A stretch of 64,000 bases of DNA from Haloplanus rubicundus (lineage in GTDB: Archaea > Halobacteriota > Halobacteria > Halobacteriales > Haloferacaceae), in contig NZ_CP031147.1 of the NCBI RefSeq assembly GCF_003342675.1, forward strand, positions 62,001-126,000. Direction: 5' to 3'. Numbering within the stretch: the stretch's first letter is position 1; each line of letters starts with the position of its first letter. Shown here piece by piece: positions 8,687 to 31,979 of this stretch. The notes beneath the pieces were generated by a model that had not been told where the DNA came from, did no database searches, and worked only from the letters and a program-made list of their open reading frames with translations. Position numbers and translations under genes: made by a program.

Positions 8687-9901
8687 TTACCACGTGAGTA
8701 CGTAGAACGCGATCAGCCCGAGAGACGAAAGAAGCCCTGCAACCGCCGTGATCGACAGTTGGCCGACGTTAAGCGGCGTTCGAAACCCCCGTTCCAGATC
8801 TGGCCGTGAATACCGGAGTTTCAGCAACGCGGCATTCACCAGCACGAAGACGATCAATAGCATGAGGTTGGCCAATCCTGCCACGAGTCCGATATCGCCG
8901 AGGAAAATGAATGGAATCGTGAGGAGTCCGATTACCACCACTGCATAGTGGGGTGTTTGACGGGACGAGTGCACGCGAGAGAACATCTCCGGGAACACGT
9001 GGTACTCCGATTTCGACACGCCGTAGAACAGACGCGAGGTCGAGATCTGGAGGATGAGTACAGTGTTTGTCGTCGAGAAGAGAGCGATTGCGCCGAGCAC
9101 TGTTGACCCGAGTGGTCCCCAGCCGACCCGGGCAACCTCTGCCAGCGGCGACGCCGAACGGCCCAAGACGCGCCAGTCAACCAGCGCGACCGCCGATAAC
9201 CCAACGAGTACGTACAGGAGTGTCGTGATACCGATAGAGAAGATAATCGCACGTGGGATCGTCACAGTCGCATCCTCGGTCTCTTCGGACAGGTTTACGA
9301 TCGATCCGAAGCCGAGATAGGCGAAGAAAATCAGAAACCCCGCGTGGATGACGCCGAATGCGCCGTTCGGAGCGTGGAGGATCTCGGCGTTCCCCCATGA
9401 ACCACTCGCAATCCAGATGATTATCACCAGTCCGGCGACCTCGATCCCGGTGAAGAGGACGTTTATTTTGGTGGAGAGGTCGATGCCCCAGAAGTTGATA
9501 CCAGTCATAACGACGACGAGGAGAATGGCGATTGGGATCGATGGAACATCAACGAAGGCAGAGAGATAGCCCGAGAAGGCCAATGCCACCGCTGCGGACG
9601 AGATGACGCCCATGAACAGGCGGCCGAGCGCTGTCATGTCTGAAATGAGTTTGCGGTCGAACGCCTCGTGAACGTAGATATAATCACCTTCCGCTTTCGG
9701 GAACAGCGAGGCGAGCTCGGCATAGCTCAGTCCCGTTAATGACGCGATCAGGGCGGCCAGCAGAAACGAAATCACGATCGAGCCGCCGGTCACGCCAGTT
9801 GCCTCGCCGAGAATCGCGTAAATGCCAGCCCCGAGAATCAGGCCAACGCCGTAGACGACGGCTTCGAGGAGTCCGAGTTCGCGACGTAATTCTGACATCA
9901 T
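8687..9901 (-). CDS. APC-superfamily amino acid permease
   Basis: This is a membrane transporter of 404 residues with about 11-12 hydrophobic segments. The N-terminus LGLLEAVVYGVGLILGAGIY carries the G-x-G-I-Y unwound helix 1 motif typical of APC amino acid/polyamine permeases, followed by SYAELASLFPKAEGDY. FLIFFAYLGFGSIVNLSEETEDA (helix 6 region) is also classic. It probably takes up or exchanges an amino acid across the cytoplasmic membrane, with the substrate unknown. It is slightly short for the family because the C-terminus ends just after helix 12, and unlike many haloarchaeal relatives it has no UspA domain fused to it. Two adjacent ATGs (9901, 9898) are equally possible starts. Confidence 0.88.
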   Translation of the reverse strand: MMSELRRELGLLEAVVYGVGLILGAGIYAILGEATGVTGGSIVISFLLAALIASLTGLSYAELASLFPKAEGDYIYVHEAFDRKLISDMTALGRLFMGVISSAAVALAFSGYLSAFVDVPSIPIAILLVVVMTGINFWGIDLSTKINVLFTGIEVAGLVIIIWIASGSWGNAEILHAPNGAFGVIHAGFLIFFAYLGFGSIVNLSEETEDATVTIPRAIIFSIGITTLLYVLVGLSAVALVDWRVLGRSASPLAEVARVGWGPLGSTVLGAIALFSTTNTVLILQISTSRLFYGVSKSEYHVFPEMFSRVHSSRQTPHYAVVVIGLLTIPFIFLGDIGLVAGLANLMLLIVFVLVNAALLKLRYSRPDLERGFRTPLNVGQLSITAVAGLLSSLGLIAFYVLTW

Positions 9902-9973
9902 CCACCCTATCTCGTAGTTGACATAAAAATACGATGTTCGAGCACGACATAGATTTGTAGCCCCGTCTTCGGT

Positions 9974-10401
9974 TCAAGGCTGAATGTAGTATGCGGGCCG
10001 TTGCGCTCGGATGACCGACGCCGGCTGCTGGTTTTCGTCGGCGAGTAGTCCGGTCAGGTCGTCGGCGGTGATTATCCCGACAAGTTCGTCGCTTTCGTCG
10101 CAGACGGGTAGGCGACGTACGCCATTCTCGCTCATCACCTGTGCCGCCTCGTAAAAGCCAACCTCGGGACCAAGCACACAGGTCCATCGACATGCGTCGT
10201 CGGCAGTCTGGTCGGTTGAAGAAGTCTCTTCGGCGAGTACGCGTGTCGTCAGGTAGCGATCCGTGACGACCCAGTCGGATATTGTCGTTCGTGACGACAA
10301 CGCTCCCCACGTTTTCGTCTCGTATTTGTTGGGCAAGTTCTGGAATCGAGGTTTCTGGGTAGCACGGACGAGGTCTTTCGGGCAAGATCTTCGATTGGCA
10401 C
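9974..10401 (-). pseudogene. Frameshifted CBS-domain protein
   Basis: The pieces of a two-CBS-domain protein lie in three frames. VPIEDLARK is in one frame at the start, TSIPELAQQIRDENVGSVVV in a second, and the long C-terminal CBS half (GFYEAAQVMSENGVRRLPV, then ELVGIITADDLTGLLADE) in a third. At least two indels therefore separate a GTG near 10401 from the stop. CBS proteins of this size bind adenosyl ligands and are common beside haloarchaeal stress genes. Remaining in-frame segments are too short to form a functional Bateman module, so it is called a pseudogene; sequencing error at two places is the alternative. Confidence 0.7.
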
Positions 10402-10552
10402 TGCTGTTGCCTCCGTGTAATTCCTCGACGAGTGATCACACACCGGGAGAAAACTTCCTAATCGTCTGGAATCTCCCGGACACCGTCGATAAGACGAGTT
10501 GTCAGTTGCTGGATTCGGGATTCTACTGGGAGATTCTTCCGATCAAGTAGTC

Positions 10553-10574
10553 GGGGGATCTCTGAAAATCCCCC
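10553..10574. terminator. GC-rich hairpin after the small coiled-coil gene
   Basis: GGGGGAT and ATCCCCC form a perfect 7-bp stem with an 8-base loop. It lies 18 bases past the stop of the minus-strand gene that ends at 10592. No long T tract follows, so it may stabilise a 3' end rather than act as a true terminator. Confidence 0.4.
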
Positions 10575-10591
10575 GCCCATTAAGCGATCGA

Positions 10592-10756
10592 TTACTCCTC
10601 ACTACGGAGGGATTCGATCCGCTGTTCGAGGTCGTCAATCGCATCCTCAACGCTCTCGCGCGCCTGGTCGCTCAGTTCCTCGGCCTCGTTCACTGCCTCG
10701 TCAAAACTGTCACGTACTCGCTGGACAGCAGTATCGATGTCGTCGGATTCGCTCAT
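10592..10756 (-). CDS. Small acidic coiled-coil protein
   Basis: This is a 54-residue protein (MSESDDIDTAVQRVRDSFDE and onward) that is almost wholly helical, with heptad-like spacing and an excess of Asp/Glu. Small helical proteins of this type are common in haloarchaea and have no assigned role. The ATG at 10756 gives a compact acidic protein; an earlier ATG (10834) would add 26 residues of unlike composition. It is followed by a hairpin and lies between a CBS pseudogene and a UspA gene. Confidence 0.6.
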   Translation of the reverse strand: MSESDDIDTAVQRVRDSFDEAVNEAEELSDQARESVEDAIDDLEQRIESLRSEE

Positions 10757-10849
10757 GCCTGTCGTTTCTACTCTCGTTGACCGGTTAGACGTGACGACTG
10801 TTCCTAAGCACTGAGAATGATCGTCAATTTTCATTTTTCCTCTATCTGA

Positions 10850-11296
10850 TTACGAAGAATCATCAGCGGATTCAGCGGGCATACGAACCGTCAATACCGG
10901 AGCATCGGAGAGCCGGACGACCTTTTCCGTGACGCTACCGAGGAGATATCGATCCAGACCCGTGCGGCCATGCGTCCCCATCACGACGAGATCGATGTCG
11001 TGTTCGTCGACGTAATCGAGAATGGCTTGGTGGGGCGCTCCCTGTGCCACCACACCTTCGATCGTGTCCACACCAGCTGCCTCTGCTTGCTGGATCACCT
11101 CATCAATCGCGTTCTCACCCGCCTCTTCGAGAGCGTCAAACGTTCCGGGAATCGAGGCATCAGTACCGACGGTCGTGTCGACGACATAGATCGTATGGAG
11201 TGCGGCGTCATAGGTAGTTGCAAGATCAATTGCGTGCTCAACTGCGCCACGCGTCCCGTCACTTCCATCCGTCGGGACCAATATCTGGTCATACAT
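10850..11296 (-). CDS. Universal stress protein (UspA), single domain
   Basis: This UspA domain of 148 residues starts MYDQILVPTDGSDGTRGAVE and ends APVLTVRMPAESADDSS. The ATP-binding motif GTHGRTGLDRYLLGSVTEK is intact. The ATG at 11296 places the first strand at the N-terminus; 35 upstream in-frame residues do not fit the family. This is the last UspA gene of the left region and borders the first block of insertion-sequence debris. Confidence 0.9.
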   Translation of the reverse strand: MYDQILVPTDGSDGTRGAVEHAIDLATTYDAALHTIYVVDTTVGTDASIPGTFDALEEAGENAIDEVIQQAEAAGVDTIEGVVAQGAPHQAILDYVDEHDIDLVVMGTHGRTGLDRYLLGSVTEKVVRLSDAPVLTVRMPAESADDSS

Positions 11297-11429
11297 ACTG
11301 AAGCTTCGGTGCTGGAGGGACAAAGAAGGAACCATTGAGATGAGAGATTGGGAAGTCCTCAGCCATCTTTCAGGTATCGTATTGAATAGCTTCTGAGTCA
11401 TGGTTAAAGCGTCTCACTGAGTGTTTCTA

Positions 11430-12180
11430 TGTTAGCAATGGTGAACATGAGAACAATCTCACGGAACTGTCGGTCCCAGCCAAGTGCTCACACGGCAGCG
11501 CCGAGCGTGCGCTTTGTTGTCGAGTACGATGTTTCGGCCATCCAGCGCTGAGAGTAGCCTTTTGCTCAGATGAGCGTGGTGTGTCCCACGGTGAGTGGCT
11601 TCGATGCACGTTGTAGGATGATGGATCGACACCGAGTGCGTAGAACTCGAACTTGGTTGCTAGTTGTGGAACGTTTTGTCAGCTACCATGGACTGTAGGT
11701 TGTCCGCCGGAACGCGGACGACCTGCGGTCCTCTCTTCGTACCGTGTTTCTACTGTGCTGAGATGTGAACGTCAAGAACAGCGAGAGCCTCTACATCGGT
11801 TAGTGTCGTCACTTTCAGTGTCTGGACACTGCTTCCCGATCGTTGGCGGGAATAGCATGAGACTGAGCGGCAGCACAGACCCGTGCAGCAACGCCCGCTA
11901 CATCCACATCTTGAATCGGTCGAACGACTTGTAGACCTACTGTATTCGGGGAAATGGTACCGATCGAGGCCGAGTACATCACGAATCACGGCATGTACTC
12001 CAGCCGATTCACCGTCTCTCGGTGGCGATGGTCCTCTTCAAACGAAACAGTACAGGACGACGTGGATCCAGCGGACGAACCCGCCGCTGGCGGACTCGCC
12101 TGCGTGCTTTTCCAACGCTCGCTCTTGTGTAGAACATTGTTGGTAGAGAGCCATCTAGCGATTTTACTGTAGTCAGACTC
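11430..12180 (-). mobile_element. Decayed IS5-type transposase gene
   Basis: Fragments of one transposase lie in several minus-strand frames. The C-terminal part (11440-11560) reads GYSQRWMAETSYSTTKRTLG and, past an internal stop, FREIVLM; this is the RWMAETSYSTTKR-type end of haloarchaeal IS5-family transposases. TLKVTTLTDVEALAVLDVH (about 11760-11815) matches the central catalytic-core region. Stops and frame changes occur throughout, and no terminal inverted repeats could be identified with confidence. It is an inactive remnant marking past insertion at the left edge of the accessory region. Confidence 0.6.
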
Positions 12181-17868: not shown

Positions 17869-19044
17869 ATGACTACTGAACATCCGATTGAGGACGCGTT
17901 CTCGTCCGGGAATATCAAAGAGACAATTAAAGAGGTTCAACGACGAATCTGGGAAGATGAGGCCGGTGAGGCAACCGATCGGATCGGTCAACACATATCG
18001 GACCGATTCTGGGGAACCATCACCGGCGATGAAGATCCCAGTGAGGGAAGCGTCTCCTACAACTCACTCGCACCTGGAGCAAAAGCACAGATCGGCTACG
18101 TCGAGGGGGAAGAGGACGGGGAAGAACTCCCGTGGTGGTTGGAACAATTTGAGTGGACGTTCGATGCCACTGGTGGTGGCCAGATCACGGGTCCGGCTGA
18201 CGACCTCGACAGACTGGAGTCGTTCGATCCGAGCACAACCAACGTAAGCAAACCCCAGTTCAGCGGTGGCTCCAATCGACACGATCTCTTCGCACTGGTT
18301 GAGGGGCTCGTGACGGTTCGGGATAAACTGGTTGAGCATACCGACATCGACGACCCGAGCGAACTGATTACGGGCGATCAGAAGGTCGGCATCCCGGAGC
18401 AAACGTTCGACGACCTTGAGAGTGAACACGACAGAATCGAGACTACGGGGGAGTTCTCTACATGGCTTGAAGGACTCGTGAGCTTGTGCCCTCCGTTTGG
18501 CGAAACGACTACAGCACTCCTCCGGTACAACGTTGGCCTCCCCACTCATGCGGTGGAGGATCTGGGGATCGATACCGAGATACTCGATCGCGTCGGTCTT
18601 GTTGACGACGATCACGTGTACAGCAACGCATACCGCGACGCGCTTACCGATATCATGCGGTTCCAGGGGATTTTCGATCGGACAATCGATATCGGAACGA
18701 CTGATACGCCGATGGGTAGTGGACTCGAAGCGGCGTACATTCACGTGTGGGCACAGGGCGCCGAGCGCCTGAGCGATGAGGAGCAGGATACCATCCGGAG
18801 ATGTAGCGAAGACTACGGTAGTTCGATGACTGACGATGATCGATATAAACGCTCCGCGCACTGTCTGGAGCTCCCCATCTGGTATGAATCCCCGGAGGAT
18901 TACTATCCAACGTTCGATACGCAGGGCAGAATTTATAAATCATATTTGAGAAAATTCCATGAGACACAACCCGACAGAGCCGAAGCGATAGTTGCAGCAC
19001 TCGAATCAAACTACGGACTTCTTGATCCCGAAGACGATGAGTAG
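17869..19044 (+). CDS. Unknown acidic protein, first gene of AAA/nuclease-like operon
   Basis: This protein of 391 residues starts MTTEHPIEDAFSSGNIKETI. I do not recognise it. The N-terminus looks helical. Residues 80-150 are Gly/Trp/Asp-rich (LPWWLEQFEWTFDATGGGQI), and the C-terminal half is alpha-helical with HDLFALVEGLVTVRDKLVEH and the Tyr-rich tail PEDYYPTFDTQGRIYKSYLR. No transmembrane segment, signal or nucleotide-binding loop is visible, so it is probably a cytoplasmic sensor, adaptor or substrate-binding subunit. Its last 8 bases overlap the start of the next gene, which predicts translational coupling. The ATG at 17869 is chosen because the residues before it in the open frame are Cys/Arg-rich and unlike the rest. 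Confidence 0.75.
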   Translation: MTTEHPIEDAFSSGNIKETIKEVQRRIWEDEAGEATDRIGQHISDRFWGTITGDEDPSEGSVSYNSLAPGAKAQIGYVEGEEDGEELPWWLEQFEWTFDATGGGQITGPADDLDRLESFDPSTTNVSKPQFSGGSNRHDLFALVEGLVTVRDKLVEHTDIDDPSELITGDQKVGIPEQTFDDLESEHDRIETTGEFSTWLEGLVSLCPPFGETTTALLRYNVGLPTHAVEDLGIDTEILDRVGLVDDDHVYSNAYRDALTDIMRFQGIFDRTIDIGTTDTPMGSGLEAAYIHVWAQGAERLSDEEQDTIRRCSEDYGSSMTDDDRYKRSAHCLELPIWYESPEDYYPTFDTQGRIYKSYLRKFHETQPDRAEAIVAALESNYGLLDPEDDE

Positions 19045-20818
19045 AGAACAGGATCGAGGGCGTCTTGCAGACGTTGAGGAAGATTTGGAGCCCCCCCGTC
19101 AAACTGGTAGTTCCTCCTCGAATACGGGAAACGGCGATTCTTCCGATGAAGATAAAGAGCGAGAAGACGACGAAACTGAAGATGAAGGCCCAGAGCCGGA
19201 GGTACAAACCGAGACGGAGACTACCGAGCCTCCGAAGCCCGATTGGGGCCTCACCCCCCTCCCAGATACGGCGTTTCAGTTCCAGACGGGTTCCGTAGCG
19301 ATAACGCAAACGGACGGACACGAGATCGATACTCAACGGCCTTCGGGGCACCTTGCAGGTGTCGAACACACGGCCGTCAGGACGACTGCTGTGTCGCTTC
19401 AACAGAACCATACGGGGACGGTCTCCGACACCGTCCGTCCGTTAAACAGCATTCAAAACGAACGCCTTGACCGATTTCGGACCGAGACGGTCGAGTTGAC
19501 CCGCATGCCGACGGAGCTTTCACGAACGGTTCGTGCGGGGGAAGGAGAACTCGTGATAGAGGACCCCTTCTACTCGTGGGGGGGTGCTACTCCATACGAT
19601 AGCGGTCGGCCATCGGTGATCCTTCATATCGCCCCCGAGAACCGTCGCGGCGACTCACTTGCCTTTCTCGAACGCCGACTCCGAGACGAGTACACACAAC
19701 GTCAGGGTGGCGAACCTCTGGCAAAACGCGTTCGAATGGTTGCGGGGAAACCGAAGATACCGGACATCTCCGGTGCCGTTGCGACGTTCGATCTCACCGG
19801 GGACGAGTGGGAACTCGAATTCAGGGCGGATTCGGTTCGTGTCGAGCGGGATGGCAAGGACGCCCTCGAGTACGTGGAAGCGATTGTCGAGACAGGGTTC
19901 GCCGGCGATTTGGGGTATCTCGTCGTCAATATCCCAAGCGATTGGGCCGACCCCATCCGTGGTGATGTCTTCGAACGCATCCACGAGCGAATCGCCCCAA
20001 CTCCCGGCACGGATGCGTCTTCTACGATTGGGTCCGAAAACGCGACGACCGATCTCCCTCTCGTGACTCGATGCCACCCCGACGAGAACATCCAACTCCC
20101 GGCCGATGCATCGGTCTACTGGTTCGGACAGCGAATGGATCTCGACGACGAGTCAGTCTGGCCGGACACCATCGAAGGATGGGAAGATCGCTTCGACCGT
20201 TCTCTCCGCAACCTCGACTGGCTTCCGACCGTTCTGACCGAAGAACACGAGGGCAACGAGAGCACCGAACACTATCTCATCAAAGGCGCTACCGCCGGGT
20301 TACTCGTGCGAGCGGCCCACGACGATGCCGAGTCGGAGACTCTTGAGGAGTACGTCTTCGAGACTGTTTTACGAAACGATGAACTCGAGACGGAGAGTGG
20401 TGAAGACCCCTGTGTCGACGTTCATGCATCGTTTGACGATGCACTCGATTCATGCATCCCGTGGCCCGACGAAGTTGATGACTCAGCTGACCTAGTCATC
20501 GAAGTGGAGACTGGCCGGGGTGAGGGGAGCACGCAGTTCCGAAAATTCTGGCATACAATCGACCGACTTGCCGATGACGAGTACGCCGACGACTTCGTAT
20601 GTGTGGTCGTCCCTCCCCGCTTGCTCGCTAAAACGAAAAAACAGGCGGAGTACCTCTGTAAATTGGTGAAGTTGTGGAATCGGCGAGTCGACCTCACCGA
20701 GTCGGATATCGAGGGCCCGTATGCTCGTCTCGCAGTCCCCGTGTTCGATGAGAGCGGTTCGTGTCAGTCACTTCGGGAAGCCGAGGCGTTCGTTGAGGAG
20801 GTGTACGATCGTGAATGA
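19037..20818 (+). CDS. Protein with acidic linker and possible PD-(D/E)XK-like C-terminus
   Basis: This protein of 593 residues starts MSREQDRGRLADVEEDLEPP. Residues 1-80 are a disordered Ser/Asp/Glu-rich linker. Residues 85-390 form a large domain I cannot name, with repeated beta-rich segments. From about residue 405 a new domain begins: STEHYLIKGATAGLLVRAAH (helix 1), then an acidic loop and SADLVIEVETGRGEGSTQFR near 484-503, followed by FVCVVVPPRLLAKTKKQAEY. The order helix, D-x(n)-ExE, strand resembles a restriction-endonuclease fold of the VEVETG type seen in some archaeal mobile-element proteins. This assignment is inference, and the classic catalytic Lys is not evident. It overlaps both neighbours by 8 bases, so the three products probably form a complex. 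Confidence 0.7.
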   Translation: MSREQDRGRLADVEEDLEPPRQTGSSSSNTGNGDSSDEDKEREDDETEDEGPEPEVQTETETTEPPKPDWGLTPLPDTAFQFQTGSVAITQTDGHEIDTQRPSGHLAGVEHTAVRTTAVSLQQNHTGTVSDTVRPLNSIQNERLDRFRTETVELTRMPTELSRTVRAGEGELVIEDPFYSWGGATPYDSGRPSVILHIAPENRRGDSLAFLERRLRDEYTQRQGGEPLAKRVRMVAGKPKIPDISGAVATFDLTGDEWELEFRADSVRVERDGKDALEYVEAIVETGFAGDLGYLVVNIPSDWADPIRGDVFERIHERIAPTPGTDASSTIGSENATTDLPLVTRCHPDENIQLPADASVYWFGQRMDLDDESVWPDTIEGWEDRFDRSLRNLDWLPTVLTEEHEGNESTEHYLIKGATAGLLVRAAHDDAESETLEEYVFETVLRNDELETESGEDPCVDVHASFDDALDSCIPWPDEVDDSADLVIEVETGRGEGSTQFRKFWHTIDRLADDEYADDFVCVVVPPRLLAKTKKQAEYLCKLVKLWNRRVDLTESDIEGPYARLAVPVFDESGSCQSLREAEAFVEEVYDRE

Positions 20819-22568
20819 GGGGTCGACGCTGAACGAGTGGCTAACCGAGGTTGGTGGAGAGTTCTCGAAGCTCGACGTACGGATTGAGCTCCGTGATGAG
20901 AACGGCAACCGTCGACTCCACGATCTCTTGAATCGCATGGATGGAACAAATACGTACGAGGATAAAGACCCGGTACTGCGGTTCTCCCTCGGCGACCCTG
21001 ACCACGAAGTCCGGTATCGCTACAGCACGAAGCCGTCGGAGGTTGTCGGTGAGCGAGTCCGGCGGTACGATCGATACGTATTCGACGTAGTGTCGATCCG
21101 CGGCGAGAAGGCACTCAGAGGCCTTTCGTTCGAACTCGAATTCGAGGAGGCTACCAACGAGCCTACACTACCGTCTGGCGACCCGTCGACGGTCGGAGTA
21201 TCGCTCTCGACGGTATGCAACTACGACAAGACGAGGGAATTCCGGGTTGCGGGGCTCGACAGCGAGCGCAACGCGGTAATGGCATTTCTTGATGACGACG
21301 GCGACCGATGGGGACTCTCGTCGGAACATGGGATGTTACTCGAGGGACCACCGGGTACCGGGAAGACGGAAGTCGTCATGGAGGTCTGCCGCGAGCTGTT
21401 TGGCTCCGTGCCGGTCAAGATATCCGGACCAGAGATTCTGAGTCGATGGGTTGGAGAGTCCGAGCGTATCCTTCGAGAGAGGTTCGAGACTGCGCGGGAT
21501 GACCCTTCGAACGTGCTCTACATCGATGAGATTGATTCGATAGCGCGTTCCCGGGGGAAATCAACACAGGAATACAGCGCACAGATTGTGGCCCAGTTGT
21601 TGGTTCTACTCGATGGAATCGACACAAAACGCGACGAAGACCCGGTCAAGGTGGTGGCGTCGACGAATATGGCGGGGGTGGTTGATGAGGCTCTCCGCCG
21701 TCCCGGTCGACTTGGACGGACCCAATCTTTCGACACTCTTGACGAAACGGACGCGACCGCAGTGCTTCACCACTACCTCGATGAAATTCGACGCCACGCC
21801 GGGCAGGGAGGTGCCGGGGAACTCTCTGAACCACTCCGGAAATTCGTAGAGACAGGTATCTCCAAGGAACTCTCCGGTGAGGGCCGGCGAGAGGAACTCC
21901 CCTCGCTTCTCTCGGGAAAGACGGGAGCAGACATCGAACAGATCGTCCAGCAGGCGACTCGGATTGCCGACGAGAAGAGCCGATCGGTCAGTGAAGCCGA
22001 CGAATCAGGGACTGTTCGTCTCGGTGTCGAAGATCTCTACCAGGCAGCGACCGATTCAGTCCCGTCAAGTCGGATGGTGGATCCTGCAACACACACGACT
22101 GAAGGTGAAATTCCGACATTCGCTCCTACGGCGCCTGTGGTCCGTATTGATCCCGAAGAAGGGAAGGAGAAAGTGAGAGCTGCGTTCGCCCGGTTTCTCG
22201 ATACGTATGATCATGAACGGGGTGAATTCAGGGAATTCGTCCTCACCGAGGATGACGCACTGAGCGATCCGGCGGTCCTTCGGACCCGGCTCTGGGAGCA
22301 GTTCACCCCGGATGACCGATATCCAGTTTGTGTCTATATCCACGAGTTTCTGAAAATCGACAGAGCGGCGGCTCGCTCTCAGGTCGCGGAGACTGTGGTC
22401 GAAACGGTTTGTGACCGCCTCGTCGCACCACCTCCTCTCAACAATGACGCCGAACCAGTACTCTTCGGCTATAGAGCGAACTCCAATACCGAACTCCCAA
22501 GACTTGACCGCATCGCCGTCGATCCCCGAGGGTCTGAACGGCGAAGCAACGACGCGGTAGACAAGTAG
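20811..22568 (+). CDS. CDC48-like single-domain AAA+ ATPase
   Basis: This 585-residue protein starts at GTG 20811 (MNEGSTLNEWLTEVGGEFSK), which overlaps the preceding stop as GTGAATGA. Residues 1-150 are a separate N-terminal domain of mostly beta structure. The AAA core follows: Walker A GPPGTGKTEV near 180, the ISGPEILSRWVGESER pore-loop region near 203-220, Walker B NVLYIDEIDSIARSRG near 234-249, sensor 1 VVASTNMAGVVDEALRRPGR near 281-301, and the AAA lid. The C-terminal 120 residues form an unrecognised domain. The core matches CDC48/VAT/proteasomal ATPases, but there is only one AAA ring domain and no FtsH-type HEXXH protease motif. It probably acts as an unfoldase or DNA/protein remodeller for the two upstream products. 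Confidence 0.85.
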   Translation: MNEGSTLNEWLTEVGGEFSKLDVRIELRDENGNRRLHDLLNRMDGTNTYEDKDPVLRFSLGDPDHEVRYRYSTKPSEVVGERVRRYDRYVFDVVSIRGEKALRGLSFELEFEEATNEPTLPSGDPSTVGVSLSTVCNYDKTREFRVAGLDSERNAVMAFLDDDGDRWGLSSEHGMLLEGPPGTGKTEVVMEVCRELFGSVPVKISGPEILSRWVGESERILRERFETARDDPSNVLYIDEIDSIARSRGKSTQEYSAQIVAQLLVLLDGIDTKRDEDPVKVVASTNMAGVVDEALRRPGRLGRTQSFDTLDETDATAVLHHYLDEIRRHAGQGGAGELSEPLRKFVETGISKELSGEGRREELPSLLSGKTGADIEQIVQQATRIADEKSRSVSEADESGTVRLGVEDLYQAATDSVPSSRMVDPATHTTEGEIPTFAPTAPVVRIDPEEGKEKVRAAFARFLDTYDHERGEFREFVLTEDDALSDPAVLRTRLWEQFTPDDRYPVCVYIHEFLKIDRAAARSQVAETVVETVCDRLVAPPPLNNDAEPVLFGYRANSNTELPRLDRIAVDPRGSERRSNDAVDK

Positions 22569-22662: not shown

Positions 22663-23322
22663 ATGACCGACTCAGTACCAACCACTGTCGGTCTGATTGC
22701 TGATGTTCATGCGAATCTCCCGGCACTCGATGGGGTCCTGAATGACATGCCGGATCTCGATGCGCTCGTTCACGCGGGTGATATCATTGGCTATGGTCCG
22801 TGGCCCAACGCATGTGTCGAAAGACTCCGGAAACACGACGCCGTCAGCGTCCGTGGGAACCACGATCAGACGGTTATCGAGGGGCGCGCGTATGAATCGA
22901 GCGATCGATACGCACAAGACAACCTCACCGATGAAAACCTCTCGTGGATCGAAGCGTGTCCTGACAAGCGGGCACTCTTTGAGGACCGAGTCGTTGTCGT
23001 CCATGGCCACCCGGACGATCGGTTTCGATACACTGAAGCCTCCAATTTCTCGGCGGATCTTCTGGGCGAGGAAGACGTCCTTGTCCTCGGACATACACAT
23101 CAACAGGCGAAAGCGGAATACGACAACGGTATCGTCGTTAATCCTGGAAGCATCGGACAACCCCGAGATGGCGACGAAAGGGCTGCATACGCCGTTCTCG
23201 ACTTGACGGCTCGAACGGTCGAATTACGACGCGTCCCCTACGATATCGACAGACTCGTGGAAAAAATCGAGGAGAGTAGCATCTCCGCTTACCATACGGA
23301 GCGATACCGCCACGCAGAGTGA
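22663..23322 (+). CDS. YfcE/MJ0936-type metallophosphoesterase
   Basis: This calcineurin-like phosphoesterase of 219 residues carries the full metal-binding set: IADVHAN (residues 12-18), HAGDIIGYG (37-45), VRGNHDQ (63-69), VVHGHPDD (108-115) and VLGHTHQQ (143-150). This compact form belongs to the YfcE/MJ0936 group of Mn2+-dependent phosphodiesterases that hydrolyse phosphodiester bonds in nucleotides or model substrates; the natural substrate is unknown. It begins MTDSVPTTVGLIADVHANLP. A strong TATA box 26 bases upstream gives it its own leaderless transcript, although it lies only 94 bases after the AAA gene. It may be a housekeeping gene next to the operon, or an accessory of it. Confidence 0.9.
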   Translation: MTDSVPTTVGLIADVHANLPALDGVLNDMPDLDALVHAGDIIGYGPWPNACVERLRKHDAVSVRGNHDQTVIEGRAYESSDRYAQDNLTDENLSWIEACPDKRALFEDRVVVVHGHPDDRFRYTEASNFSADLLGEEDVLVLGHTHQQAKAEYDNGIVVNPGSIGQPRDGDERAAYAVLDLTARTVELRRVPYDIDRLVEKIEESSISAYHTERYRHAE

Positions 23323-27908: not shown

Positions 27909-28440
27909 ACTTCAGTAATGCGTTTCATGAATCAAAAAATTGTCGAGCATAAGGATACATCCGCCCACACCACCCCCTCTGCAGACCGTCGTGGCCACTG
28001 ACGTGGTAACCCATTCGTCGTCCTGTACGTCTCGAAGTGGGAGAGCGAACCCCACGGGTCGAACAATTCAATGACTACGCGACCTTGGTGACCGCCTGCG
28101 ATTGCCGTTCGGGTTTCCTAACGGCGTCTGACAATTAAACGTCTCCTGAAGCCGTCCCCCGCTCTCCGACACCAACATCGTCGAACAGATCCTGCCACTC
28201 ATCTTCTCAGTACTCAATCAGATCAAAGTACGTTCGATAGCCAGTCAGCGTGAGCACCTCGAATACGACCCTCAATAAAGGTCTCACACATTAAACTACA
28301 AGCTGAAAGTTCTCTTCCCACCGAATTAAACGACAGCATGAGAGCAACCACACTCTGAAGATTGGGGTGTCTGCTGTTGTGAGTTGAGCGTTCCCTCACC
28401 GGGACAAGGTTATTTTGTCCGTTCTGTCAATACCGGAGGT
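27909..28440. other. Gene-poor region upstream of mcrB
   Basis: No intact gene is seen in these 532 bases. A short minus-strand stretch near 28190-28290 reads VVFEVLTLTGYRTYFDLIEY then, past a stop, EDEWQDLFDDVG; this looks like decayed coding DNA. The last part carries a TATA-like TTATTTT about 28 bases before the mcrB start at 28441. Confidence 0.4.
28409..28415 (+). promoter_or_regulatory. TATA-like box of mcrB
   Basis: TTATTTT lies 26-32 bases before ATG 28441. A GGAGGT directly abuts the ATG, too close to serve as a ribosome-binding site, so a leaderless transcript is likelier. Confidence 0.4.
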
Positions 28441-30780
28441 ATGGTTAATCTGGTTTCAGTAGGGGAATTCGATCTCGACGAAGGGGCCCTCCAAGCGGCT
28501 GTCGATACGTACCTCGATTTCAAATCGACTGATGAGGACCAGAGAAATTGGAACCGAGAGGTTCTGAATAGCGGCCATTCGTGGCTCAATCAACGGGACC
28601 TGACTGCGGACACGGTATCGGAATATATGTCGGAACTGAGAGAAGCAACGGGAGATGATCACCCAATTCTGTCCGAGGAAGACTTCGACGACCTGGAGGC
28701 GAAGGTAGCTGACGACGCTGGAAATTTCGTCAAGAACCTGGTAGCGCTATTCGAAGATGAGAGTTCACTCGAAGATCGCATTGAGCGATTCAGGACGAAT
28801 CAGGATATAGATCTCACGGTCATTAGTGCTCTCTTGACGACTTCCGACCCCGACCGATATGTACTGTACGACGAGGAAGGCTTTGAGACGCTTATTCGTT
28901 ACTTCACTGGGTTGCACAGTCCCGATCTCGGCGATCTCTCTGTCGGGAAAAGATACGAGCTCTATCGGGACTACTGTTCAACAATCCAGACGGACGTTTT
29001 GAGCGAGAAACTCGCTGACGCCACGCTGCAAGACGCTCAAGAGTTCGTAGGTACTGTAACGCACTCAGCAGAATGTAGATACAACTTCATTCTCAGATAC
29101 CTCTTCAGACACACTAGCCGGTTAGAGGAATTCGAGGATCAAACCTCTGTGTTCCTCGACGAAATTCGCACGCTACCACAGGCATTTCTCAGAGAACAGC
29201 TTGAGGCGTACGAAGGACGCCAGAAAATAGCCAAAATCCGGTACGATGTGCTCGATGCCATCCTTGACGGCGCATCCGTAGATATCGACGAAATCGCCGC
29301 ACGAGAGAATGCAAACCACGAGAAGAACATCATGAACTCGTGGGACGACTACAAGATCCTCGCTCAGATTTACTACAACTATGCCAAAGACCGTGTAGAG
29401 GCGTATATCGAGGATTTGCTCGATTATCTACGAAACGAGATAGACGCTGACCAACTGTCTACTCACTACGTCACCTACCAGGGCGCAACCAACATCCCGA
29501 GTACTCGCTCGTGGGCTGTTCTGTATCCGAGCGTTCTCGGAGATCACAAATCGGCATATCAACTGTACATCTATTTCTATCCCAACGAGATTGAATACGG
29601 GATCGATAACGGAAGCGACGTCCCTCGAAAGGAATACGATGACGAGTCGTTCGAGTCTGAAGACGAAATATCGATCCAGAACGTGGTCGAAGCGTACAGA
29701 GAACGGTTGGACACGTTCTGGAGGTGGAACGAAGAACTGATCGAAGAACCGGACTCCGCAGAGTACGACGAGTTACCGTGGTTCGAGACCGTCGAAAAAC
29801 ATCTCCAGCGCAAGAAACAGATCGTTTTCCACGGTCCGCCAGGAACCGGGAAGACCTATGGAGCACTCAACTTCGCCAAGTGGTGGATAGACAGGGGACT
29901 GGACGAGGAAGACCACTTCGACGACGCTGTCGAGGACCGCCTTCGGATGGTAACGTTCCATCCGACGTTTTCGTATGAAGACTTCATCGAGGGGATAACG
30001 GCGAAGACCCGTGACGGCGACCTCGTATACGAACCCAAGGCTGGCGTGTTCAAGGAGATGGCTGAGGACGCCGTCGAGGCCTACGAAGACGCCGACTCGA
30101 AAGCAGATGCCCCCAGATACATCCTTATCATCGACGAAGTGAACCGGGGAAACATCCCAAAGATCTTCGGTGAGACGATCACCCTCATCGAGAACGACAA
30201 GCGGCTCGGTGAGCCGAATGAGATGAGAGACGAGCTGCCACATTCAGAGGATCGGCTCGTAGTGCCCCCGAATCTCTACATCATCGGGACGATGAACACG
30301 GCCGATCGGTCAATCGCACTCGTCGATGCCGCGATACGTCGGCGATTCCGATTTCGACACTTCCCGCCGAACTACGAAGTTCTCTACGACCAACTTGGCT
30401 TCGATGGCGAGCAGGACGTCAAAACCAAGGCTTCAGTCGAAGAGGGAGAGGACCTCGGTGCCCTCTCCATTCTCGCACTCAGTGCTATCAACGAACGTAT
30501 TCGGGACAGTGGGAACCTCGGGAAAGGCAAACAGGTCGGTCACTCCTATCTCATCGGTGGGACCACGGACGAGCGTCTCGTAGAGTCCTGGAAGAACGAG
30601 ATACTCCCTCTGCTCGATGAGTACTACTTCGGAGACATGGAGCGGCTCAAAGAGCACATATTCGATGGAGGGGGTGAGAGCCTATTCAACTGGAAGGAAC
30701 AGCGGATCGCCGATTTCGATTCCGACGCTCTCCGTGCCGCGCTTTCCGAACTCGTTGGCGAGGATGGTGAAGTGGAGTGA
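28441..30780 (+). CDS. mcrB: McrB-like AAA+ GTPase/ATPase of type IV restriction
   Basis: This 779-residue protein is the motor and recognition subunit of a McrBC-type system that cuts modified DNA. Residues 1-440 are the recognition part; within them SWAVLYPSVLGDHKSAYQLY (about residues 357-376) resembles the MrcB-like N-terminal domain. The AAA core has Walker A FHGPPGTGKTYGALNFAKWW near 463, FHPTFSYEDFIEG near 508, Walker B/sensor region LIIDEVNRGNIPKIFGE near 560-576, and GTMNTADRSIALVDAAIRRR near 616-635. These are diagnostic of McrB. The ATG at 28441 follows a TATA-like box. The stop overlaps the GTG of mcrC by four bases. Modified cytosine is the usual target of the family; the exact specificity depends on the unusual N-terminal part. 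Confidence 0.9.
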   Translation: MVNLVSVGEFDLDEGALQAAVDTYLDFKSTDEDQRNWNREVLNSGHSWLNQRDLTADTVSEYMSELREATGDDHPILSEEDFDDLEAKVADDAGNFVKNLVALFEDESSLEDRIERFRTNQDIDLTVISALLTTSDPDRYVLYDEEGFETLIRYFTGLHSPDLGDLSVGKRYELYRDYCSTIQTDVLSEKLADATLQDAQEFVGTVTHSAECRYNFILRYLFRHTSRLEEFEDQTSVFLDEIRTLPQAFLREQLEAYEGRQKIAKIRYDVLDAILDGASVDIDEIAARENANHEKNIMNSWDDYKILAQIYYNYAKDRVEAYIEDLLDYLRNEIDADQLSTHYVTYQGATNIPSTRSWAVLYPSVLGDHKSAYQLYIYFYPNEIEYGIDNGSDVPRKEYDDESFESEDEISIQNVVEAYRERLDTFWRWNEELIEEPDSAEYDELPWFETVEKHLQRKKQIVFHGPPGTGKTYGALNFAKWWIDRGLDEEDHFDDAVEDRLRMVTFHPTFSYEDFIEGITAKTRDGDLVYEPKAGVFKEMAEDAVEAYEDADSKADAPRYILIIDEVNRGNIPKIFGETITLIENDKRLGEPNEMRDELPHSEDRLVVPPNLYIIGTMNTADRSIALVDAAIRRRFRFRHFPPNYEVLYDQLGFDGEQDVKTKASVEEGEDLGALSILALSAINERIRDSGNLGKGKQVGHSYLIGGTTDERLVESWKNEILPLLDEYYFGDMERLKEHIFDGGGESLFNWKEQRIADFDSDALRAALSELVGEDGEVE

Positions 30781-31979
30781 CAACTGCTGACCTGATAGAA
30801 CTGTCCGAGTACGACGAATCAGACCCAATCGACCTGTCCGATGACGATATCGAGATGATCGAATCACAGGTCGATGGATTGCGAGTGGAGTACAGACGAG
30901 GCAAACAGGTCGTACTGCACACGGATCATCGAGTCGGAGTCGTTGCCCTCCCCGATGGACCCACTATTGAGATACAACCGAAAATCGGGGAGCCAAACCT
31001 AGTCACACTGCTACGATACGCAAACGGGACAGAACCAACCTATCTCTCACACGAAACGGAACTCGAAAGCGGGACGAATTTTGTGGACACGGTAGCAGCC
31101 CTGTTTCTCGAAGAACTGGAAGCAGTTCTGTCTCAGGGCCTTAGGAGAGAGTACGTCGATGTAGAAGGAACAGAAGAGTATCTCCGGGGCAGATTGAACG
31201 TCCAGAGACAGCTCGCAGGAGGTCCCGGTAAGACGGATTTCGAGTGCGATTACGACGAATTCACCTACGATACCACGCTAAACCAGACGATTCTCTGCGT
31301 TGCGAACACGCTGTCGTCGCTGGTAGATAGCTCCGAGATCGCTGGCGAACTACGCGAATACGAATCGCGGCTCAGACGACGAGTGACGCTCCGAGAAGTT
31401 TCGATCGAGGAAGCCGAACGGATCGAACTGACTCGCCTTACTGATTACTATGAGAAGGTTCTGGCCTTGTCTCGCCTCGTGCTGAAACACATCTACATCG
31501 AAGACATCGTCGCCGGTGAGGGTGCATCGTACTCCCTGTTGATCGGAATGAACGACGTGTTCGAAAAGGTAGTCGAGAGAACAGCACGAGAAACCGTGGA
31601 CGAACGAGATGGCTGGAGCGTGGAAGGACAGGCTCGAACCGACAATCTACTCAGAGGAAATCCGTCGATTCGTATGCGACCTGACTTCGTAGTCAAACGC
31701 CACGGTGAGCCAGTACTGGTCGGGGACGCCAAGTGGAAGACCAAAGTCAAGAATAACGACGTCTATCAGGTCGTAGCGTACCAGACAGCCTATGATGCGC
31801 CAGGTGTGCTGGTCTATCCAGACAACGATGGTGCTGTCGAGAATGACTACTCCGTGAAGAACGGGTATAGTTTAGCGATGTTGGAGCTACCGACAGGGGT
31901 GAATACTGCAGACGTTGGTAAATTTGGTCGAAAAAACGTTGAGCGATTTTTCGATTTTCTTTCTGGGACTGTAGGTTGA
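30777..31979 (+). CDS. mcrC: McrC-like nuclease subunit
   Basis: This 400-residue protein starts at GTG 30777, overlapping the mcrB stop. The N-terminal half (GKQVVLHTDHRVGVVALPDG, then TIEIQPKIG) and the central LRGRLNVQRQLAGGP are typical of the McrC family. The C-terminal PD-(D/E)XK nuclease is intact: IRMRPDFVVKRHGEPVLVGD with D near 302 and DAKWKTKVKN near 316-325, then VYQVVAYQTAY. It associates with McrB hexamers and provides the endonuclease for cleavage of modified DNA. The gene pair is complete and appears functional. Confidence 0.9.
   Translation: MTTADLIELSEYDESDPIDLSDDDIEMIESQVDGLRVEYRRGKQVVLHTDHRVGVVALPDGPTIEIQPKIGEPNLVTLLRYANGTEPTYLSHETELESGTNFVDTVAALFLEELEAVLSQGLRREYVDVEGTEEYLRGRLNVQRQLAGGPGKTDFECDYDEFTYDTTLNQTILCVANTLSSLVDSSEIAGELREYESRLRRRVTLREVSIEEAERIELTRLTDYYEKVLALSRLVLKHIYIEDIVAGEGASYSLLIGMNDVFEKVVERTARETVDERDGWSVEGQARTDNLLRGNPSIRMRPDFVVKRHGEPVLVGDAKWKTKVKNNDVYQVVAYQTAYDAPGVLVYPDNDGAVENDYSVKNGYSLAMLELPTGVNTADVGKFGRKNVERFFDFLSGTVG

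Follow-up and report, generated by a model that had tools for sequence, protein, structure and literature searches.

The window analysed here is a 64,000-nucleotide stretch of a haloarchaeal contig 225 kb in length (Haloplanus rubicundus, NZ_CP031147.1). It contains three forward-strand genes, here termed A, B and C, which overlap at both junctions:

17869-19044, + strand: gene A, 391 aa, fold not recognised, no family match
19037-20818, + strand: gene B, 593 aa, with a tail of low complexity at the N-terminus, a conserved domain in the middle and a PD-(D/E)XK-type C-terminus
20811-22568, + strand: gene C, 585 aa, a classical AAA ATPase that carries an N-domain of its own and a C-terminal domain
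19037-19044, + strand: end of A overlapping the start of B by 8 nt, ATGAGTAG; 12 of 15 loci retain an 8- or 4-nt overlap here
20811-20818, + strand: end of B overlapping the start of C by 8 nt, GTGAATGA; 12 of 15 loci retain an 8- or 4-nt overlap here

The initial annotation described three coupled genes on the same strand, and this description holds: all three open reading frames lie on the forward strand, and the trio is kept as one cassette across 15 loci. The two overlaps, said to be identical, are so in length alone, both being 8 nt but of different sequence (ATGAGTAG and GTGAATGA). Retention of an 8- or 4-nt overlap in 12/15 loci per junction, at about 25% protein identity, places this geometry beyond chance. 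The product of gene A had been singled out as acidic, and indeed has a pI of 4.19, but such a value is ordinary for a haloarchaeon (B, 4.33; C, 4.74; window median, 4.55).

The A-B-C trio recurs in the same order and on the same strand at 14 other archaeal loci, 13 of them haloarchaeal and one outside Halobacteria (genome G671), which bears out the co-occurrence in archaeal genomes that the initial annotation had suggested looking for. The 15 trio loci discussed here are the window and these 14, including a Haladaptatus plasmid record (L041). Among 147 relatives, a search with B gave a substantial match in nine further genomes and a weak 49-residue match in one more; the search with A returned exactly the nine genomes with a substantial B match, and all nine loci keep the A-B-C order and strand. 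A B profile applied more widely picked up 12 full-length B proteins among 391 Halobacteria genomes, and a further one beyond that class, in G671. The distribution is thus patchy, at about 3% of the sampled Halobacteria genomes, and identity in A and B among trio loci is mostly 22-30%. Distances for A, B and C are correlated (Mantel r 0.90, 0.82 and 0.84; p 0.0001; 15 loci), showing that the three genes travel together, although common descent alone also gives such a correlation.

Gene A was detected in trio genomes alone (11/371) and was never seen without B. Gene C, at E below 1e-60, is found in the trio genomes and in a single exception, G132, where it stands alone (L096:9315-10901) at the argG-gyr site at which sister species carry the trio. 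This lone C retains the C-terminal domain missing from the C of the sister species, and A and B are absent. In two sister species gene A is broken, by a split in one and by a disrupted frame in the other, at different points (L023:1488-2551 and L028:11239-12421), by real decay or assembly error. The lone C and the broken A genes suggest that not every part is always needed. Separate homologues, named beforehand as an argument against a single unit, therefore amount to this one C and to distant B-like proteins with other partners (see below); otherwise the trio is found together.

The closest copy of the cassette belongs to a different genus (L066; 53% identity in A, 57% in B, 60% in C), closer than the copies from the same genus as the window (L022, L026; 22-28% in A and B, 34-41% in C), which indicates that the cassette moves horizontally. 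It is carried on plasmids, as in Haloplanus sp. GDY1, a genome of the same genus (L040), and on chromosome-sized contigs of G003, G091, G157 and G671. Such a clearly mobile cassette might serve plasmid or mobile-element maintenance or competition, or act in a toxin-antitoxin-like manner, in which B would be the toxin, A the immunity protein and C the chaperone. The plasmid-borne copies, a ParA-like gene near the trio in the window and the association of CDC48-family AAA genes with plasmids and viruses in archaeal dark-matter islands (PMC4158269) would fit such a role. The copies on chromosome-sized contigs argue against it, as does the result that no relatives of A or B were found in viral contigs, phages or PHROG, and we regard this explanation as rather improbable.

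The features of gene C, assigned by motif comparison where a motif is named, are as follows:

about residues 1-145, + strand: N-domain, C's own
21345-21368, + strand: Walker A, GPPGTGKT (residues 179-186)
21441-21461, + strand: pore loop 1, SRWVGES (residues 211-217); W213, V214 and G215 invariant in the family
21519-21539, + strand: Walker B, YIDEIDS (residues 237-243)
21696-21710, + strand: RRPGR (residues 296-300), arginine-finger region
about residues 430-585, + strand: C-terminal domain, missing from several relatives

Gene C encodes one AAA module (PF00004, E 4.9e-31, above the cut-off) with the family score, Walker A and B motifs, sensor 1 and SRH arginine fingers of a classical AAA protein. 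The Walker A lysine, the Walker B DE, the sensor asparagine, RPGR and the W-V-G pore loop are invariant in C and ten relatives. Pore loop 1 is of the aromatic-hydrophobic kind found in peptide-threading members (W213-V214-G215), and such a loop marks AAA proteins that thread polypeptides (PMC7018516). The previous label was a single-ring, CDC48-like AAA+ ATPase. C is a single-module classical AAA protein, and it falls outside the CDC48 subfamily both by score, reaching 114.8 of the 802.65 bits required by TIGR01243, and by module count, with one AAA module instead of two. No A or B gene adjoins any of the other high-scoring AAA genes of the genome that were inspected, on C1, C2 and C3; those on C1 and C3 lie in loci resembling transfer modules, and the C2 gene is unrelated.

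Within gene B the following features were distinguished:

19037-19531, + strand: tail at the N-terminus, roughly residues 1-165, with very low pLDDT and probably disordered
19556-20071, + strand: middle domain, residues 174-345, common to distant B-like proteins and conserved along with the nuclease-type domain, likely alpha/beta (low-confidence model)
20222-20794, + strand: nuclease-type domain, residues 396-586, CoiA_nuc-like by alignment and profile comparison
20258-20284, + strand: ESTEHYLIK (E408, H412, Y413, K416), H and K invariant in 21/21
20417-20419, + strand: D461, predicted metal ligand, invariant in 21/21
20501-20512, + strand: EVET (E489, E491, T492), ExE motif, both E invariant in 21/21

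The alignment of the 15 trio B proteins with six distant B-like proteins (21 in total) displays the motif order ESxxHYxxK...E...D...ExE, in which H412, K416, D461, E489 and E491 are invariant (21/21), E453 is kept in 20/21, and E408 and S409 are nearly invariant. The D...ExE pattern (IEVETG) pointed out earlier is therefore real and invariant in relatives, and the conserved acidic catalytic set of the CoiA_nuc type of the PD-(D/E)XK superfamily is present in the right order. The CoiA family is itself accepted as belonging to PD-(D/E)XK and has a PD-ExQ site (PMC1189080). In a profile-to-profile comparison with CoiA_nuc (PF06054) proteins gathered from archaeal genomes, a score of 39.6 (81.7% probability) was obtained with the combined B profile, whereas none of 60 column-shuffled controls exceeded 16.0. 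The profile of distant B-like proteins alone scored 42.5 (best control, 17.8) and that of trio B proteins alone 23.4 (best control, 17.7); the direct link of the trio to CoiA_nuc is accordingly weaker, and the chain runs from trio B through the distant B-like profile (E 1.2e-14) to CoiA_nuc. The five CoiA_nuc sequences used were trimmed around the motif itself, which somewhat favours a match; with the first three as untrimmed whole proteins, E was 0.0035, compared to 0.37-0.73 for unrelated pairs. None of the 21 B members matches the Pfam CoiA_nuc model, and B is therefore named CoiA_nuc-like rather than filed under PF06054.

The five invariant residues and the profile match to CoiA_nuc support, but do not prove, the view that B ends in a CoiA_nuc-like nuclease of the PD-(D/E)XK type, in line with the nuclease-like C-terminus first proposed for the middle protein. 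The confident non-nuclease fold that could have spoken against this view did not appear in structure prediction or Foldseek. AlphaFold models of A and B from four-row alignments had a pLDDT of about 42; the order of elements in the B model fits, at a pLDDT that is too low, and Foldseek with this poor model gave no match below E 0.09. Nothing meaningful was obtained with PDB sequence profiles of B and its two domains, and B has no match in the family libraries Pfam, PADLOC, NCBIfam and PHROG; further members scanned against Pfam gave no match either. An analogy with proteins combining CARF and PD-(D/E)XK domains (Can2-like) was set aside as a mere idea, PADLOC giving no CARF match. Degenerate extended motifs, among them VAITQTDGHEIDTQRP and VSLQQNHTGTVSDTVRP, were picked up in the tail of B by a pattern scan and may be read as repeats; over residues 87-167 (19295-19537) they end in RP or RA, as they do in many relatives, and possibly form a multivalent binding tail.

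The nature of the nuclease-type domain and of its ATPase bears on two further explanations. CoiA_nuc is tied to DNA uptake and recombination (PMC1189080), and B's resemblance to it could indicate an accessory complex for DNA repair or recombination, like CoiA in competence; very patchy distribution and fast divergence are unlike housekeeping repair, however, and B relatives are embedded in BREX, making this very unlikely in our view. Alternatively, the trio could be a motor nuclease akin to McrBC, with C translocating DNA and B cutting it as a type IV restriction enzyme. The parts are broadly alike, an AAA ring accompanied by a nuclease that has an additional domain, and the island is restriction-rich, but C is a classical AAA protein with a peptide-gripping aromatic pore loop that does not match McrB-type AAA (GTPase) proteins (PF00004 best; AAA_5 at E 1.2e-5 only). 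At profile level the B nuclease domain does not match the McrC-like family of haloarchaea (hhalign E 0.73), i.e. a McrC-type nuclease partner is absent. Given this pore loop and the lack of a McrC relation, DNA pumping of the McrBC type is less likely, and we consider it unlikely overall.

Gene A is recognisable as a family by an LCPP stretch and one further hallmark:

about 18127-18156, + strand: PWW...F.W motif of A, LPWWLEQFEW in the window

It had been called unrecognised, and this still applies, with no match in Pfam, PADLOC, NCBIfam or PHROG. A single PDB-profile match (E 5e-4), to a designed helical binder, was judged a composition match. No relation could be detected between A and the partners encoded upstream of the distant B-like proteins.

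These distant B-like proteins occur in several settings, and neither A nor C adjoins any of them. In three BREX operons (L068, L069, L071), a pair of genes encoding 226 and 573 aa, of which the larger is the distant B relative and keeps the nuclease-type residues of B, is located between BrxC/BrxB and PglX (in L069, B-like gene at 9159-10880 and partner at 10873-11553; in L068 the smaller gene is interrupted). PADLOC names BrxC (twice), BrxB, PglX and PglZ in these operons and leaves the pair unnamed. A B-like pair with no visible BREX is present in L070, and a two-gene B-like module with a different upstream gene in L072 and L073. The fourth setting (L074:1363-10189) comprises proteins of 629 aa, 792 aa (PLD domain) and 1403 aa, the last ending in the B-like core; the first and third have no confident Pfam match.

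The window contains a BREX operon of its own, separate from the trio and matching the same PADLOC models (BrxHII, PglX, BrxA, BrxC, BrxB, BrxC, PglZ). The initial annotation had placed the trio in an island with McrBC and BREX; BREX is confirmed, but the first gene of the supposed McrBC pair (28384-31979) gave only weak type II REase matches in PADLOC, and the second none. Known defence genes flank about 6/15 trio loci. Recognised or candidate defence genes near trio loci are TmtA and pAgo with REase (L024), a homologue of the L024 TmtA-like gene (L064), PDC-S01 (L025), a type I methyltransferase (L067), PDC-S11 and a PbeA-like helicase (L041) and a weak defence-gene match (L026). As a raw count from a scan of chosen neighbours, this is suggestive of defence, and haloarchaeal plasmids may be rich in defence genes. 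Some loci, such as the argG-gyr sites of L023 and L028, have no recognised defence neighbour, and in a comparison of neighbours no BREX gene family recurs beside the trio at the 14 other loci.

Other genes were noted beside trio or B-like genes. Homologous genes for proteins of about 2140 aa, TmtA-like by PADLOC (L024), lie directly upstream of the trio at L024:12175-18585 and L064:12217-18678. Genes for a VWA-domain protein and an N-6 DNA methylase, together with a hypothetical gene, are divergent from the trio on the GDY1 plasmid (L040:11457-16206); the same genes, tested as L022, have no PADLOC match, and the group is possibly another unnamed module. A metallophosphoesterase-type gene (ISDVHAN...GNH) adjoins C or a B-like gene at five places (window 22663-23322, L023:6246-6953, L028:7513-8229, L072:7687-8358, L096:10914-11576). 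It was rejected as a trio member, its adjacency being probably due to chance and, in one genus, reflecting the argG-gyr/gyrase neighbourhood.

The mobility of the cassette, its patchy distribution, its defence-gene neighbours and the distant B relatives inside BREX operons all point to defence, and on such sequence evidence a role against viruses or plasmids is likely. We propose, with a probability of about 0.5, that the trio is one mobile anti-invader machine with B as effector nuclease, A as its partner and C as the AAA protein that switches or resets it. The effector B would cleave nucleic acid through its CoiA_nuc-kind PD-(D/E)XK-type domain, next to its own conserved middle domain. A would be a dedicated partner in complex with B, and is the best candidate for a sensor or brake. 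C, presumably a hexameric peptide-threading ATPase, would pull on A-B or on an attached viral protein, and control would run from C to B, pulling serving to switch, license or reset the nuclease. As a more tentative possibility, B may represent an archaeal effector core (middle domain and CoiA-like nuclease) mounted in several chassis, i.e. the A-B-C unit, the two-gene BREX insert, an independent module of two genes that extends beyond Halobacteria, and the giant fusion beside a PLD protein, with the nuclease in the trio licensed by a protein unfoldase and not by a nucleic-acid motor. If true, this arrangement would constitute a new type of immune design in archaea.

In archaea, immune systems other than CRISPR and restriction are poorly mapped (PMC12988326). 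The trio is a compact, conserved and mobile cassette that is unnamed in the profile libraries used and provides a link to an unannotated BREX gene pair. If it defends cells, an ATPase-gated nuclease would join the archaeal repertoire and BREX would gain a candidate accessory effector.

None of PADLOC 2023, Pfam, NCBIfam and PHROGs offers a fit for the trio, in agreement with the initial failure to match it to a named system. Its B protein shares with CoiA_nuc the motif order ES-x2-H-x3-K, E, D and ExQ/ExE in register, and differs in its large middle domain and tail, in having ExE rather than ExQ, and in its AAA and A partners. Like McrBC, the trio encodes an AAA ring with a nuclease bearing an extra domain, but the AAA clade and pore loop are different, there is no McrC profile relation, and gene A is additional. 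Type III CBASS combines HORMA, a TRIP13 AAA protein and the NucC nuclease with a CD-NTase. It resembles the trio in that a protein-remodelling AAA is encoded with a PD-(D/E)XK effector; however, searches of Pfam, PADLOC and NCBIfam with A and B gave no match to CD-NTase, HORMA or NucC, and the TRIP13 match of C (1.6e-8) is weaker than its matches to other AAA models. C also matches IetA models of IetAS (5.5e-15) as a generic AAA relative, but reaches 58.4 bits against the NF042959 cut-off of 510, and an IetS subtilase-type partner is missing, no protease match being found in A or B (Pfam, PADLOC, NCBIfam). The DndCDEA-PbeABCD system comprises the PbeA helicase, the 66-aa PbeB, the SMC-like PbeC and the 152-aa PbeD (PMC6459918); gene sizes and types differ, and identity of the trio with a Pbe system was rejected, A, B and C having no Pbe match. 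Haloarchaeal BREX with two BrxC is connected to the trio through the distant B relative and 226-aa partner embedded in three operons, and differs from it in that the trio has no BREX core gene and C is not BrxC. The searchable literature, a scope outside which lie all preprints and most subscription journals, yielded no description of the trio; the combination of an AAA protein with a nuclease is a known design, and within that scope the trio is a new variant of it.
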